NCBI GenBank assembly: GCA_937973995.1 | Contig: CALJIQ010000047.1 | Coordinates: 1 to 51,719 of the forward strand | DNA: 51,719 nucleotides | DNA from: an uncultured Saprospiraceae bacterium | GTDB taxonomy: Bacteria; Bacteroidota; Bacteroidia; Chitinophagales; Saprospiraceae | Direction of reading: 5' to 3' | In this document: in pieces, positions 166-51,719 of the stretch | How positions within the stretch are numbered: position 1 is the stretch's first letter | How the letters are laid out: every line of letters starts with the position of its first letter | The notes under the pieces: generated by a model | The model's database searches: none | The model's input: the letters and a program-made list of their open reading frames with translations, nothing else | What the model was told of the DNA's origin: nothing | Made by a program: the position numbers and the translations under genes

Positions 166-1404
166 ATGACAATTTTAACTTCAACTTCAATCTCAACTTC
201 AACGATCTCAAATTTTCGCTTCCTTTTAATACTGCCCATTTTATTATCCTTTCCTTTTTTTCTTCCTAGTCAAACCGCAGAAGAGTTATTACAAGAAATT
301 AGAAATACCAGTGAATTATTAAGCAATACCCAAAAGACACAGGCGCAGGTATTGGATAGTTATTATGCGTTACAGCATAAATTATCTCAGCGGGCACGAC
401 TAATAGACGTTATTCAAAAAGAAATCAATACGGCTAGTGTAGAAGTAGAAACAGCGGCTTTAGCAGTGGATTCATTGGAGATAGAAATAGATAGATTGAA
501 GGAAGAATATAGTACCATTATGCGTCAAGCTTTTCGGCAAAAGAAAAGTAGAAATGACTTATTGTTTTTATTCTCCGCTGCTAGTTTTAATCAAGCTCTG
601 AAAAGGTGGCGGTATTTGCAACAGTACAAAGAATATCGCAAGAAACAAGTCCTATTAATCCTAGAAAAACGAACGAATTTAAACGAGAAAATCCAACAAT
701 TAACCGTCAATAAAAAGAAACAAGAACGACTCTTACTAGAAGAAATGAATCAACGTAAAATAGTCCAAGAGGAAATGGAGTTGACGGGAACAATTGTAGG
801 GCAACTTAAAAAAGAAACCTATGAAATCAATAAATTATTAAAAGCCCAGAAAGAAGCACATCAGAGATTGGCAAAAACGGTGGAGTTTACCATTGCTGCG
901 GATGTAGATAGAATAGAAGAATCTAGTGAAGTGGAAAAAGCTATTATCGAAAAAGAAAGTCCTACTAAAAAACTATCACCAACCATATCCTATGAATTTA
1001 TCAAACGAAAAGGTCAATTCAACTGGCCCATCCAACAAGGAGTTATTGTAAGGTATTTTGGCAACCAACCGCATCCGATCCATAAAAAAATTGTTATCAA
1101 TAATAACGGAATTGATATCAAAGCAAGGTCTAATCCAACGGTCTTTTCTCTCCACGAAGGAGTGGTTAAAGCGATCCAAATAGTTCCTGGTTATAAGAAT
1201 ACCTTAATTCTTCAACACGGAGAGTATTACACCGTGTATTCCAATTTAGAATCGGTGAAGGTGAAAAAAGGAGAAATAGTTTTGGCACAGCAAGCCATTG
1301 GAATAGCAGCTATTCCTGTTCAAAAAGAACAACCTGAACTACACTTAGAAGTATGGAAGGGCAAACAGCGATTAAATCCTTTTACTTGGCTGAGAAAGTT
1401 GTAG
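166..1404 (+). CDS. EnvC-like murein hydrolase activator (coiled coil plus degenerate M23/LytM domain)
   Basis: The protein has 412 residues: a hydrophobic N-terminal export signal (about residues 18-34, ending near PSQ), a long charged coiled coil (about 36-260) and a C-terminal LytM/M23 domain (about 285-410). This is the EnvC/NlpD architecture, in which the LytM domain switches on cell-wall amidases at division. Two metal-site motifs are degenerate. The first His of HxxxD is Asn (NNGIDI), and HxH reads ELHLEV, so an activator role fits better than hydrolysis. The start at 166 gives a long Ser/Thr-rich stretch ahead of the signal, encoded by repetitive ACTTCA-type DNA; no better in-frame start is visible. 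It is transcribed alone and faces a cyclase gene. Family call strong, amidase partner inferred. Confidence 0.85.
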   Translation: MTILTSTSISTSTISNFRFLLILPILLSFPFFLPSQTAEELLQEIRNTSELLSNTQKTQAQVLDSYYALQHKLSQRARLIDVIQKEINTASVEVETAALAVDSLEIEIDRLKEEYSTIMRQAFRQKKSRNDLLFLFSAASFNQALKRWRYLQQYKEYRKKQVLLILEKRTNLNEKIQQLTVNKKKQERLLLEEMNQRKIVQEEMELTGTIVGQLKKETYEINKLLKAQKEAHQRLAKTVEFTIAADVDRIEESSEVEKAIIEKESPTKKLSPTISYEFIKRKGQFNWPIQQGVIVRYFGNQPHPIHKKIVINNNGIDIKARSNPTVFSLHEGVVKAIQIVPGYKNTLILQHGEYYTVYSNLESVKVKKGEIVLAQQAIGIAAIPVQKEQPELHLEVWKGKQRLNPFTWLRKL

Positions 1405-1483
1405 TCTATCTGTCAAAGTAGCAAACTCTTTGAATTGTTCTACTTGTTTTTTTACATCTTTATATACTCGAAACGGTGTAAAA

Positions 1484-1575
1484 AAGTGATTTTCCAATAC
1501 GGTTTATTTGTTTAGTTGTTGAACTGTTTATCCAAGTATAGCTTGTAAACGATTAAACAGATAAACCAATAAACA
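1484..1575. repeat. Hairpin element A, copy 1 (second copy, inverted, at 49132-49279)
   Basis: Between two convergent genes, 1502-1532 and 1544-1573 form a long imperfect stem built on GTTTATTTGTT / AACAAATAAAC-type arms. The reverse complement of about 49168-49253 matches this stretch at most positions by eye, including the central TATCCAAGTATAG part. Similarity continues to the right (TTTATCCC and AGTATA motifs near 1597-1616). The element lacks a coding sequence, so it looks like a non-autonomous hairpin repeat that may also end transcripts from both sides. The rest of the 1405-1684 gap holds nothing else I can name. Confidence 0.65.
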
Positions 1576-1684
1576 TTTAGTTCACTTTCACAATTTTATC
1601 CCACTTACAGTATAGTTATGATTTAAACCTAAGCAAGTTTAATCATTTTAGCTTATTTATGTAAACTTAATGTTGGGCATTTAT

Positions 1685-5670: not shown

Positions 5671-5790
5671 GGTGATGTGGTGTTTTGGCATTGTGGCGTT
5701 TTGGCTAGGGGATGTATATGGAAAATGTACTACTATTATCGAATAAGCAATACCTACCACAACGCCATAAAGCCACAAAGCCATAAAGCC
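5671..5790. repeat. Hairpin of TGGTGTTTTGGC / GCCATAAAGCCA words (element C, copy 1)
   Basis: The left arm (5671-5697) is built of TGGTGTTTTGGCATTGTGG words and the right arm (5756-5790) of GCCATAAAGCCACAAAGCC words, which pair imperfectly around a 60-base middle. The same word pattern recurs at 23711-23800 and 42483-42543, each time in a gap at or near a gene end. Confidence 0.55.
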
Positions 5791-5987
5791 TTTTCAAATC
5801 GTTTTTGGAAAGTGCCTCCCCTACGGGAGGCATACCCAAAAACCGATTTAAGTATTTTTTTTGTTTACCTTTTGGTCATAGGAATGATAGGCTTATTGGT
5901 AGCATAAGCAATATTTCCTTTGGGTCGAGTTAGATGGTTTTCTCAGAAAATAGTAGGAACGAATAGCAGCGAGAAGGTGGATGATTT

Positions 5988-23695: not shown

Positions 23696-23710
23696 TATAA
23701 TGGCTTCTAA

Positions 23711-23800
23711 GGCATTGTGGCTTTATGGCGTTTTGGCAAGAAATCCTTTGAATTAGGAAGACTCAACCAAAATGCCATAAAGCCATAACACCACAACACC
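23711..23800. repeat. Hairpin of GTGGCTTTATGGC words (element C, copy 2)
   Basis: The left arm (23711-23738, GGCATTGTGGCTTTATGGCG type) faces a right arm (23768-23800, AATGCCATAAAGCCATAACA type). The words are the same as at 5671-5790 and 42483-42543. It lies right after the DUF2723 stop codon and could form the 3' end of that mRNA. Confidence 0.6.
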
Positions 23801-23827
23801 TATCTCGCATTTATTCAATATTTTACT

Positions 23828-35248: not shown

Positions 35249-35329
35249 TGCAATCTAGGGTACTGGAAGCAAGTAGTGCTCTCAACTCTGGAGGAGTTGA
35301 ATCTTGAACATTCAACTCCTCCAGAGTTG
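35249..35329. repeat. Palindromic element D, copy 1 (second copy at 51610-51719)
   Basis: It starts TGCAATCTAGGGTACTGG and contains a perfect 19-bp hairpin: 35283-35301 (CAACTCTGGAGGAGTTGAA) against 35311-35329. The hairpin and flank recur at 51610-51719 in the same orientation. The right end of that second copy is the reverse complement of the left end of this one (28 of about 30 bases), so the full element appears to have terminal inverted repeats of about 30 bases. No coding sequence inside. Confidence 0.7.
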
Positions 35330-35470
35330 GGGAAATGCCCTAAAAGGTCTTACCACCGCGTTGCACACGGCGTTATTCACATTCAATCCCTTTGGGATTC
35401 TGAGATGTGAGGTATCAATAACACTTCTTGTATGCCCTGTCAGTTAAAAGGAAAAAGCGATTCCTTAAAA

Positions 35471-42482: not shown

Positions 42483-42543
42483 TGGTGTTATGGTGTTATG
42501 GTGTTATGGCTTTGTGGCCATAGAGCCATAATGCCAAAACGCC
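42483..42543. repeat. Hairpin of TGGTGTTATGG / GCCATAATGCC words (element C, copy 3)
   Basis: TGGTGTTATGGTGTTATGGC words (42483-42510) face GCCATAGAGCCATAATGCCA words (42517-42543) and can pair over 20 or more bases around GTG. It lies between the DUF368 stop and the aroE start on the same strand. Confidence 0.65.
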
Positions 42544-42547
42544 TATT

Positions 42548-45792: not shown

Positions 45793-45905
45793 TTAGACAG
45801 AATAAATAAAACAGTTGATTGACTCGTCGGATGGCTGCGCCGTCCGATGAGCCTCCCCATCCGACGGCGTAAGCCATCGGACGGGATTTCGTCAATTCTG
45901 TCTAA
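45793..45905. repeat. Palindromic element E, copy 1 (second copy core at 49517-49581)
   Basis: Terminal inverted repeats TTAGACAGAAT (45793-45803) and ATTCTGTCTAA (45895-45905) enclose a core (45822-45886) of TCGGATGGC ... GCCGTCCGA hairpins. The 65-base core recurs at 49517-49581 in the same orientation with about five differences. Its start overlaps the false upstream extension of the OmpA-like gene. It looks like a small non-autonomous mobile element or a structured repeat. Confidence 0.7.
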
Positions 45906-46654: not shown

Positions 46655-48907
46655 ATGCAAAACTATTTACAAGAGTTAAACGATGTCCAACGACAAGCCG
46701 TCACTACCACCGAAGGTCCAGTTTTAGTGGTCGCAGGTCCAGGGTCAGGGAAAACGAGGGTATTGACCTTCCGCATTGCTTATTTGATTGAGCAAGGCGT
46801 GCTACCCTGGCAAATCTTGTCTTTGACCTTTACCAATAAGTCTGCCCGAGAAATGAAAGAACGGATTGCTAAGGTGGTGGGCGATAAAGCCAACCAAGTA
46901 TGGGCAGGAACGTTTCACTCTACTTTTGCGAAGATATTGCGGGTAGAAGCAGAGAAAATAGGCTATCCTTCTAATTTTACGATCTATGATACGACGGATA
47001 CGAAGAGTTTAATCAAAACGATTATCAAGGATTTAAATCTGAATCCTGAAAAGTATAATGTCAATGCGGTTTATTCGAGAATCTCTTCTGCTAAAAGTAA
47101 TTTAATTACACCCAAACTTTATCCTGATATGCAGGAGTTGATGACTGCGGATAAAGCCAGCCAACGACCACATATTCACGAAATTTATAAAACCTATACC
47201 GCTCGTTGTAAGAAAGCGGGGGCGATGGATTTTGACGATTTATTATTTCAACTGTATTATCTGTTTCATTCCAATCCAGATAATGTCTTGGAGAAATATC
47301 GAAAGAAATTCCAATATATTTTAGTGGATGAGTTTCAGGATACGAACTATTTACAATATGCTATTTTAAAGAAATTAGCTTTATATGAAGGTAGTAAATT
47401 GAATGTTTGTGCGGTAGGGGATGATGCGCAAAGTATTTATGCGTTCCGTGGAGCGACTGTTGAAAATATCTTGGATTTAGAAAAAGATTTCAAAGGTTTA
47501 CAGACCTTTAAACTAGAACAAAATTATCGGTCCACCGATCATATCGTGCAAGCGGCGAATGCCACTATTCTTTTTAATAAAAAGCAAATTCGAAAAAAAA
47601 TATGGTCCGATAAGGGGGTGGGGCATAAGATCAAAGTGATTAAAGCACTTTCGGATACAGAGGAAGGGAAGCGGGTAGCGGATGCGATTGTTGAGCAAAA
47701 AAATAGGCATCATTTAAGTAATAGTGATATTGCCATTCTATATCGAACCAATGCGCAGTCGAGGGTTTTTGAAGAATACCTTCGTCGATATAATATACAT
47801 TACCAAGTATTTGGGGGGACCTCCTTTTATCAGCGGAAGGAGGTGAAAGATTTAATTGCTTATCTGCGTTTAACGGTAAATCAGAAAGATGAAGAAGCGT
47901 TAAAAAGAGTGATTAACTATCCCAAAAGAGGGATCGGTAAAACCACCCTTGAAAAGTTAAGCAAGTTTGCTAATGAGTCGGATCAAACCTTATGGGATTG
48001 TTTGGATCAATTACAAGTACCCGCTCGTACCCAAGGGCTTTTAAAGAATTTTAAACTACTCATTAACACCTTTACGCAACGATCCACTACTTCCGATGCT
48101 TACGAATTAGCAACGTATATAGCTCGCCAATCAGGCATCATTAAAGTATTGAAAGCGGATACTACCGTAGAAGGATTAAGTCGTTTGGAGAATGTTACCT
48201 CTCTGCTAGATGGTATCAAAGAATTTGTAGAAAATGACGAAGTTATAGAAGGGACCGAACAGTCCGATAAATCCTTATCCACCTATTTACAAAATATCGC
48301 CTTACATACTAGTTTGGATGAAGAGGATACAGGTAATTATGTGACCCTCATGTCTTCTCACTCAGCGAAAGGCTTAGAGTTTAAATCTGTTTTTGTAGTA
48401 GGTTTGGAGGAAACGCTTTTCCCTTCTTTTATGTCTATGAATAGCATGAGTGCCATCGAGGAAGAACGTCGTTTATTCTATGTATCTATCACTCGTGCAG
48501 AAGAATTATTGACGCTTACCTTTGCTTCTTCTCGCTACCGACATGGCAAAACGGTGTATAGCGAACCTAGTCGCTTCTTATCAGAAATTCCATTAGACCA
48601 TGTAGAAAGTAACTTTAATATTGGTCAACCAACCACCAGCAATGTAGCCCCAAGGGCTAGGGTAACGGGTGGTTTTAAAAAGAAACGAACGGAAGCGGTG
48701 TTGTCGATCAATCCAGCAGATTTTAATCCTAGTCCTTCTAGTTCGATAGAAGAGGGCATGCGGGTCTTGCACTTAAAATTTGGGGAGGGAGAAGTCATCA
48801 AAATAGATGGGGCAAGAGATAAGCGAGTCGCCACCATTAACTTTAATCAGATTGATAATCCAGAACGACGACTTATGTTGAAGTTTGCTAAGTTGCAGAT
48901 TTTGTGA
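46655..48907 (+). CDS. UvrD/PcrA-type superfamily 1 DNA helicase
   Basis: The protein has 750 residues. Walker A is AGPGSGKT (27-34), motif II is LVDEFQDTN (near 223), and motif III is VGDDAQSIYAFRGA (near 253-266). Later motifs EQNYRSTDHI, LMSSHSAKGLEFKSVFVVGLEE and YVSITRAEELLTL confirm the UvrD-like family. The C-terminus (about 695-745, MRVLHLKFGEGEVIKIDG) is the tudor-like domain that contacts RNA polymerase in PcrA/UvrD. It unwinds DNA 3'-5' in repair and in removing stalled polymerase. The name pcrA or uvrD cannot be decided by eye. A hairpin sits directly in front of its ATG; a long palindrome cluster follows it. Confidence 0.93.
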   Translation: MQNYLQELNDVQRQAVTTTEGPVLVVAGPGSGKTRVLTFRIAYLIEQGVLPWQILSLTFTNKSAREMKERIAKVVGDKANQVWAGTFHSTFAKILRVEAEKIGYPSNFTIYDTTDTKSLIKTIIKDLNLNPEKYNVNAVYSRISSAKSNLITPKLYPDMQELMTADKASQRPHIHEIYKTYTARCKKAGAMDFDDLLFQLYYLFHSNPDNVLEKYRKKFQYILVDEFQDTNYLQYAILKKLALYEGSKLNVCAVGDDAQSIYAFRGATVENILDLEKDFKGLQTFKLEQNYRSTDHIVQAANATILFNKKQIRKKIWSDKGVGHKIKVIKALSDTEEGKRVADAIVEQKNRHHLSNSDIAILYRTNAQSRVFEEYLRRYNIHYQVFGGTSFYQRKEVKDLIAYLRLTVNQKDEEALKRVINYPKRGIGKTTLEKLSKFANESDQTLWDCLDQLQVPARTQGLLKNFKLLINTFTQRSTTSDAYELATYIARQSGIIKVLKADTTVEGLSRLENVTSLLDGIKEFVENDEVIEGTEQSDKSLSTYLQNIALHTSLDEEDTGNYVTLMSSHSAKGLEFKSVFVVGLEETLFPSFMSMNSMSAIEEERRLFYVSITRAEELLTLTFASSRYRHGKTVYSEPSRFLSEIPLDHVESNFNIGQPTTSNVAPRARVTGGFKKKRTEAVLSINPADFNPSPSSSIEEGMRVLHLKFGEGEVIKIDGARDKRVATINFNQIDNPERRLMLKFAKLQIL

Positions 48908-49131
48908 TGATGGTTGGATGGCTTCGCTTCGCTGATGGTTGGATGGCTCGATGGTCAAGTATGTAGCCATCTAAAGTAATTTGACAGTATTCGTAAAATA
49001 CTGGAATATGGACAGGGCGCTGCCCTTTATCGTTATATTCAAATAAGTTCTACAAATATTATCAGGGTGAATGCCCTTCAATTGCTTACGCTAAAAGGGA
49101 GTTAGCCCTGATAATATTTGTAGAAATGTCA

Positions 49132-49279
49132 ATTATACTACGGACGGGATAAATTACCGAAAATGCTTGAATCGTTTATTTGTTTAACTGTTTATTCGTT
49201 TACAAACTATACTTGGATAAACAGTTCAACAAATAAACAGTATTGGAAAATCGGATATTTATCCCGTGTTCAGTATAAT
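49132..49279. repeat. Hairpin element A, copy 2
   Basis: Outer arms ATTATACT (49132-49139) and ACGGGATAAAT (49144-49154) match 49272-49279 and 49257-49267. Inner stem 49174-49198 pairs with 49215-49238 (GTTTATTTGTT / AACAAATAAAC). The unit is an inverted relative of 1484-1575, and its outer arms correspond to TTTATCCC and AGTATA near 1597-1616 there. Confidence 0.7.
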
Positions 49280-49516
49280 ATGATTTTGAAGGGCAGCGCC
49301 CATAGCCGTCAGGCTAAGAGATTAAAGAGCGGATAAGTCGTCAGGAGACGACTATGATAGGCATTCCAAGTCTGGAGACTTGGACTATCGGGCAAGATGA
49401 TGCGATCTATCAAGTCTCCAGACTTGATAGGCTTATCCGAGTCGTCTCCTGACGACAACATTCCGTTTAGCCTGACGGCTATGGGCAGCGCCCTGGAAAT
49501 ATAAAGTATTTGATTT

Positions 49517-49581
49517 ACTCGTCGGATGGCTGCGCCGTCCGATGAGTTTTCCCATCCGACGGCGCAAGCCATCGGACGGGA
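49517..49581. repeat. Palindromic element E, copy 2
   Basis: This 65-base core (ACTCGTCGGATGGCTGCGCC and on) matches 45822-45886 with about five differences in the same orientation. The TTTCGTCATTTCTGTACA stretch that follows resembles the right end of copy 1. It adjoins the nested cluster. Confidence 0.72.
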
Positions 49582-49637
49582 TTAAACCATTATTTCGTCA
49601 TTTCTGTACAATAATTCACCATCAAGCAATCAAACCA

Positions 49638-51609: not shown

Positions 51610-51719
51610 TGCTGGGTACTGGAAACAACTAGTGCCCTCAACTCTGGAGGAGTTGAATCCTGAACATTCAACTCCTCCAGAGTTGGGAACATTACTTGCT
51701 TCCAGCACCCTAGATTGCA
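51610..51719. repeat. Palindromic element D, copy 2, cut by the window end
   Basis: The same 19-bp perfect hairpin as at 35283-35329 lies at 51639-51657 and 51667-51685. The right end (TTGCTTCCAGCACCCTAGA) is the reverse complement of the left end of copy 1, so this copy shows the right terminal repeat that copy 1 lacks. It may continue past the window. Confidence 0.7.

Follow-up and report, generated by a model that had tools for sequence, protein, structure and literature searches.

A nested palindrome block in an uncultured Saprospiraceae bacterium is built of separable mobile elements, one of them placed at a palindrome centre

Introduction

Palindromes enclosed by other palindromes raise the question of whether they form one structure or were laid down layer by layer. 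Such a block (48997–49510) was noticed in the window, the whole 51,719-nt stretch of DNA from an uncultured Saprospiraceae bacterium analysed here, where it lies between two convergent genes, one for a UvrD/PcrA-type helicase, which ends at 48907, and the other a 631-aa ORF. The initial annotation, made from the letters alone, proposed either successive insertion of hairpin elements or a class of elements directed at hairpin tips, moved by an enzyme encoded elsewhere. Here we report that the layers are separable mobile elements, namely an older hairpin repeat (C) and two small non-coding inserts (B and A), and we consider how A came to lie at the centre of a palindrome.

Results

The reverse-complementary arms and inner pairs described for the block were all found by sequence comparison within the window, and the elements to which they belong are listed in Table 1. 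Each of the layers, A (49298–49486), B (49132–49279), and C (48990–49135), recurred separately elsewhere in the same genome with a different set of copies, a check that had been proposed along with the first reading. A and B were 98–99% identical to their nearest copies and C was 92% identical to the copy on contig C474; B and A are probably younger than C.

Table 1. Elements and target sites identified in and beside the palindrome block
Feature	Position	Strand	Remarks
C, host element (outer arms, inner stem, terminal small palindromes AGGGCGCTGCCCT / AGGGCAGCGCCCT)	48990–49510	+	Split by B and A; copy on C474
C, central stem-loop	49048–49125	.	Arms 49048–49078/49095–49125, 87% complementary; present in C474 and C501 copies
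B, MITE with ends TACT(N)4ACGGGATAAAT	49134–49277	+	At TA of C; flanking TA 49134–49135 and 49276–49277 counted in
Left 9-bp target duplication GGCAGCGCC	49292–49300	+	Direct copy flanking A; single at empty C474 site
A, MITE with terminal inverted repeats CATAGCCGTCAGGCTAA/TTAGCCTGACGGCTATG	49301–49483	+	Ends shared with IS4-family elements
F unit (REP-like, two small hairpins), first of inverted pair in A	49337–49382	+	Occurs without A ends elsewhere
F unit, second of inverted pair in A	49411–49456	-	87% complementary to 49337–49382
Right 9-bp target duplication GGCAGCGCC	49484–49492	+	Direct copy flanking A; single at empty C474 site
D, palindromic repeat CGTCGGATGGC...CATCGGACGGG	49516–49583	.	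Adjoins C, outside the nest; second copy 45821–45888

The outer arms (48997–49025/49483–49510) and the stem at 49048–49125 had been taken for two layers, but they belong to one element, since the stem is a part of C that is also found in the C474 and C501 copies. The outer arms themselves are present, except that 49483–49493 is the second target copy made by the insertion of A; before insertion, the right arm of C consisted of 49276–49301 joined to 49493–49510. The copy on contig C474 (G000:C474:4131–4330, minus strand) was 92% identical to the window over 48990–49135, was complete, and continued without B and A. At its junction (...GTCAATTA|ATATGATTTTGAAGGGCAGCGCCCTGG...) the window has B after CAATTA, with TA on both sides. 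The ...GTCAATTA of C474 leads straight into ATATGATTTTGAAGGGCAGCGCCCTGGAAATATAAAG; in the window this sequence is interrupted by B at the TA and by A within GGGCAGCGCCC, where A lies between two copies of GGCAGCGCC that are represented by a single GGCAGCGCC in C474. A partial copy of C on C103 was also empty of B and A, and GGGCAGCGCCC was uninterrupted in another partial copy, on C501. These insert-free copies with clean junctions showed successive insertion, as had been suggested. All of the empty sites, including those of C474 and C103, are paralogous, not orthologous; the proposed search in relatives gave no clean orthologous site, as five genus mates (helicase gene match 74–83%) were without the block but differed in their downstream sequence too. 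The empty C474 copy (L031, 4100–4380) was itself enclosed by an outer palindrome, ATATGCCATATT..GATGCACAC / GTGTGCATC..AATATGGCATAT, so that layering there also proceeded outside C.

Element B is about 140 bp long and present in about 100 copies, and its terminal-inverted-repeat pattern gave 193 ends in the genome of the window. Its description as an independent element was borne out, and the copy noted at 1.5 kb is a diverged relative (1463–1624, minus strand). TA flanked both sides of all 17 two-sided copies, and the empty site at C474 (CAATTAATATG) has a single TA. In the window, B is located at a TA of C and not at a hairpin tip; among the 17 copies from this genome, the duplication was centred on a palindrome axis in two, and centred with at least 7 of 10 positions paired in one. 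On these site statistics, with no preference for palindrome centres, B was rejected as a tip-targeting element. Both A and B are short, non-coding, multicopy elements with inverted terminal repeats and a target duplication, as MITEs are, and B resembles IS630/Tc1-mariner-type MITEs in its inverted terminal repeats and the duplicated TA on its two sides.

Element A is 183 bp long and non-coding. The arm pair reported at 49298–49317/49467–49486 is real, and could be refined to the terminal inverted repeats of A plus flanking target bases. More than a dozen copies with ends CATAGCC...GGCTATG and 96–99% identity were found in the genome of the window; complete two-sided copies were few because many stop at contig breaks in this draft. 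The GGCAGCGCC duplication in the window is centred on GGGC-AGC-GCCC, a small palindrome of C. The duplications in the genus (GGCAGCGCC, GTTTGTAAC, GATTGCATC, GTTGCAAAC, and similar ones) differ in sequence and have the same symmetry, and they are nearly always 9 bp long; elsewhere the length is 9–11 bp, with 10–11 bp in several named genomes. A sizeable minority of the duplications of A-type elements could not be detected or were imperfect, and one side of the insert often carried the loop as its reverse complement (L096, L126, L188, and others). Correction of one arm of a quasi-palindrome from the other would produce such loop inversions. A literature search for the end sequence of A found no paper.

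The inner GTCGTCAGGAGACGAC...TCGTCTCCTGACGAC pair of A (49337–49456) is itself a dispersed repeat unit, and F units without A ends were found both in genus mates and in the genome of the window. In one genus mate (L228, G004:C389), inverted F units at 664–724 and 1410–1462 flank a 194-aa RAYT-like gene that overlaps a match to PF01797 and is tyrosine-transposase-like. This association with a RAYT gene, as known for REPs and REPINs, indicated that F is REP-like and that A is a MITE with a REPIN-like core. No A lacking its F core was seen among the loci read in the genome of the window. Repeats designated R flank a RAYT-like gene in this genome. At L231 (G000:C226:1500–5200) in this genome, a RAYT-like gene of 186 aa (1102–1662, minus strand) was flanked by an array of GATCGTCGAAGTT (719–1115, 1758), a repeat type that also hosts A-type elements and the insertion sequence L188.

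Further palindromic repeats were observed near the block and elsewhere. The two copies of D (Table 1) were 90% identical over 83 nt, and D recurred beside a B copy at C67. Units like GCCATAAAGCCACAA occurred in inverted arrangements in the window (5683–5800, 23708–23801, and 42492–42544) and at L232 (1594–1697), and also near a RAYT-like gene at C498. The palindromic repeat CAACTCTGGAGGAGTTGAAT... was found twice in the window (35249–35336 and 51614–51719; 89–92% identical).

A Pfam scan of 23 of the 25 window ORFs of at least 200 aa, together with two shorter ORFs, detected no transposase. Other genomes contain full-length elements whose ends are identical or almost identical to those of A. 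A 1,486-bp element with the same ends in Pontibacter aydingkolensis (L092) encodes a 456-aa transposase matching the IS4 family (NF033592, E 7.5e-60; PF01609, E 5.6e-16), with the Y(2)R(3)E(6)K motif YYGLRWQIELVFKTWKS. A 1,431-bp element in the genus mate G003 (L188) has the ends CATACCCGTCAGGCTAA and the Y(2)R(3)E(6)K motif YTLRWQIELMFKIWKS, and is located in the tip of a REP-like palindrome, GATCGTCGAGGTT-TGT-AACCTCGACGATC. In the IS4 family, which is defined by the YREK signature, duplications are 7–13 bp (Table 1 of PMC2266710). The single-ORF DDE transposases of the full-length relatives carry this signature, and a duplication of 9 bp in the genus and 9–11 bp elsewhere is about one helical turn, as expected of the family. 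The ends CATAGCCGTCAGGCTAAG match all but one conserved position of IS231 (CAT-------AA--TAA), and are also compatible with ISH8 (CAT-----------T) and IS4Sa (CA------T). Assignment of A to IS231 was set aside because the 9-bp duplication of the genus does not agree with the 10–12 bp of IS231, although several named genomes have 10–11 bp. We therefore filed A as a CAT-ended element of the IS4 family with no subgroup assigned.

Attribution of the enzyme to the IS4 family is well supported by these sequence comparisons, and the occurrence of the same ends on full-length elements supports indirectly that A was moved by a transposase recognizing them; cut-and-paste transposition by an IS4-type transposase acting in trans would account for A. 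An enzyme acting from elsewhere thus finds candidates in a genus mate and in another genus; in the draft genome of the window itself (94.6% complete, 562 contigs), no full-length helper with A ends was found. The Pontibacter transposase used as a query had no match in this draft, and the sole IS4-family gene found there (C87) was cut by a contig end and had no matching ends visible.

For target choice, we assembled 37 two-sided A-type sites from the genome of the window, genus mates, and named genomes of several phyla, allowing up to three mismatches between the duplication copies and leaving out sites without a detectable duplication; each empty site was rebuilt and its best palindrome centre located. 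This centre coincided with the centre of the duplication, within half a base, at 32 of the 37 sites, and 26 of these 32 also had at least 7 of 10 positions paired, whereas only 13.8% of random positions were centred and 1.9% were centred with such pairing. Pairing outside the duplication averaged 5.6 of 10 positions, compared with 2.7 for displaced centres. In the genome of the window, 15 A-type loci occupy tips of another hairpin family, E, and a pattern search there found 26 uninterrupted E tips with exactly 3 nt between the arms. Tip-targeting, proposed for the block as a whole, is thus supported for the A-type elements and not supported for B, which uses TA dinucleotides. At least one fifth of the A-type sites were not clearly palindromic. 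The host palindromes varied between genomes (GGC-N3-GCC, GTT-N3-AAC, GAT-N3-ATC, and others).

A 20-base query consisting of the A end and three flanking bases found 69 stretches in 84,980 species' genomes searched, in Legionella, Pontibacter, Deltaproteobacteria, Bacteroidales, Dysgonamonadaceae, and others, and many of these also sit in palindromes, such as CGTAGGTCGGGCGCTTCGCCCGACCTACG. The named-genome set is biased on one side because the query contained the GCC adjoining the A end; the genus set, searched by the A end alone, had the same palindrome pattern. In the genome of the window and its genus mates, a search with only the end sequence gave 18 sites with a 9-bp duplication, and 13 of them had at least 7 of 10 pairs. 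As the A-type sites are not all independent, we also counted one site per host family in these genomes, and 8 of 13 had such pairing, compared with 4% of ordinary GNYNNNRNC sites.

Discussion

It is very probable that the hairpin element C was later entered by the MITEs B and A, with A directed to a palindrome centre by an IS4-type transposase acting in trans. The older element C, lying between two convergent genes, would have received B at a TA. A, which carries REP-like units as an inverted pair, would be derived from a CAT-ended insertion sequence of the IS4 family without being autonomous itself. A DDE transposase provided in trans would join the ends of A to the two strands at points separated by 9 bp, with the dyad axis (the 3-nt loop) of a small palindrome midway between them; repair of the gaps would then produce the 9-bp direct duplication. 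Since the target is a palindrome centre, each such insertion would nest a new hairpin in an old one.

What the transposase reads at its target can be explained in two ways. It may recognize only a short symmetric motif, such as GNY-N3-RNC, which REP hairpins happen to contain in harmless intergenic DNA. Symmetric targets are usual for DDE transposases, and the IS231 target, GGG-N5-CCC, is comparable with GNY-N3-RNC. The duplication itself is symmetric at nearly all A-type sites, and some of the sites are without longer arms. However, of the abundant motif sites no more than about 4% have long arms, compared with 8 of the 13 host-deduplicated insertions, and pairing reaches well beyond the duplication, although survivor bias towards intergenic palindromes may contribute to this. 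We consider recognition of the motif alone quite possible, if short of probable. An IS4-type transposase may instead read an extruded hairpin or cruciform rather than the base sequence, in which case transposition by this DDE enzyme would be directed by structure. Strand transfer is centred on the loop even though the palindromes that serve as hosts in different genomes have little sequence in common, and on this ground we put forward such reading of structure tentatively, as a rather unlikely mechanism.

A further explanation for the centring is that A spreads together with its host, as one E-plus-A or C-plus-A composite, so that a single ancient insertion was copied many times and only appears as tip-targeting. 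Most copies of A in the genome of the window are indeed flanked by the arms of E (...CTAAAGGGGCAACTGAGGC-NNN | A | ...GCCTCAGTTGCCCCTTTAG), and filled and empty E copies share flanking hairpins at their arms. However, the E tip at C187 is filled by a different MITE, A2, with an exact 9-bp GGCAGCGCC duplication of its own, so A was not just carried along by E. The A of the window sits in C, not E, with a 9-bp duplication of its own, loop trinucleotides and arm variants vary among filled E copies, and A-type elements lie in unrelated palindromes in other genomes. These independent hosts have already largely refuted composite spread, which we regard as very improbable. A unique structured locus kept whole, such as a structured RNA or terminator array, would suit the position between convergent genes and the folding of the block, which at -175 kcal/mol for one DNA strand compared with -66 ± 4 for shuffles (n = 20; z -25.5) is far beyond chance, but the window had no Rfam match at the gathering threshold, genus mates are without the block, and the separate copies of every layer and the empty sites refute this reading, leaving it next to no probability.

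Insertion at a palindrome centre by the A-type elements can be compared with several known systems. The CAT-ended IS4 subgroups IS231, ISH8, and IS4Sa have ends comparable with the CAT-------A---TAA of A, and resemble it in a symmetric target and a duplication of about one helical turn (PMC2266710), and the full-length relatives of A likewise have a single-ORF DDE transposase with YREK. A differs from IS231, which has been reported almost only from the Bacillus cereus group (PMC2266710), in the 9-bp rather than 10–12-bp duplication in this genus, and the A of the window is non-coding. Targeting of REPs by insertion sequences is already known for ISRm22 (IS4), IS1397/ISKpn1 (IS3), and ISPpu9/10 (IS110) (PMC1525189); these likewise insert specifically into repeated extragenic palindromes, ISRm22 being an IS4-family case, whereas the A end sequence is found, across several phyla, at the centres of many unrelated palindromes, and its copies are mostly MITEs. 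The F units resemble REPINs and RAYT-associated REPs (PMC3116915, PMC2817692, PMC3733652) in forming inverted dimers and in flanking a RAYT gene in a genus mate, but the F dimer lies inside a DDE-type MITE and F is without an established GTAG/CGTC tag. A palindrome within a palindrome has also been described for REP dimers, GTAG-15 of A. variabilis and CGTC-1 of H. neapolitanus, for which no insert-free target palindromes were reported in those two genomes (PMC3733652); here, in contrast, empty target palindromes exist. What is new is a cross-phylum non-autonomous family with conserved ends and insertions centred on unrelated palindromes, and a composite stack of several types of mobile repeat whose empty sites lie in this genome too.

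With insert-free sister copies of C at hand, the layering can be read and tested with unusual ease, and insertion at a palindrome centre, by putting a hairpin into a hairpin, explains the origin of layered palindromes. Filled and empty sites together form a data set for measuring target choice. Such elements also break short-read assemblies, and many contigs of this genome end within them. Intergenic palindrome centres are likely safe harbours, and such elements could therefore spread with little harm. If structure rather than sequence is recognized, the A-type elements would serve as a clear model for how structure can guide a DDE transposase to its target, and transposition of this kind would by itself build nested palindromes.
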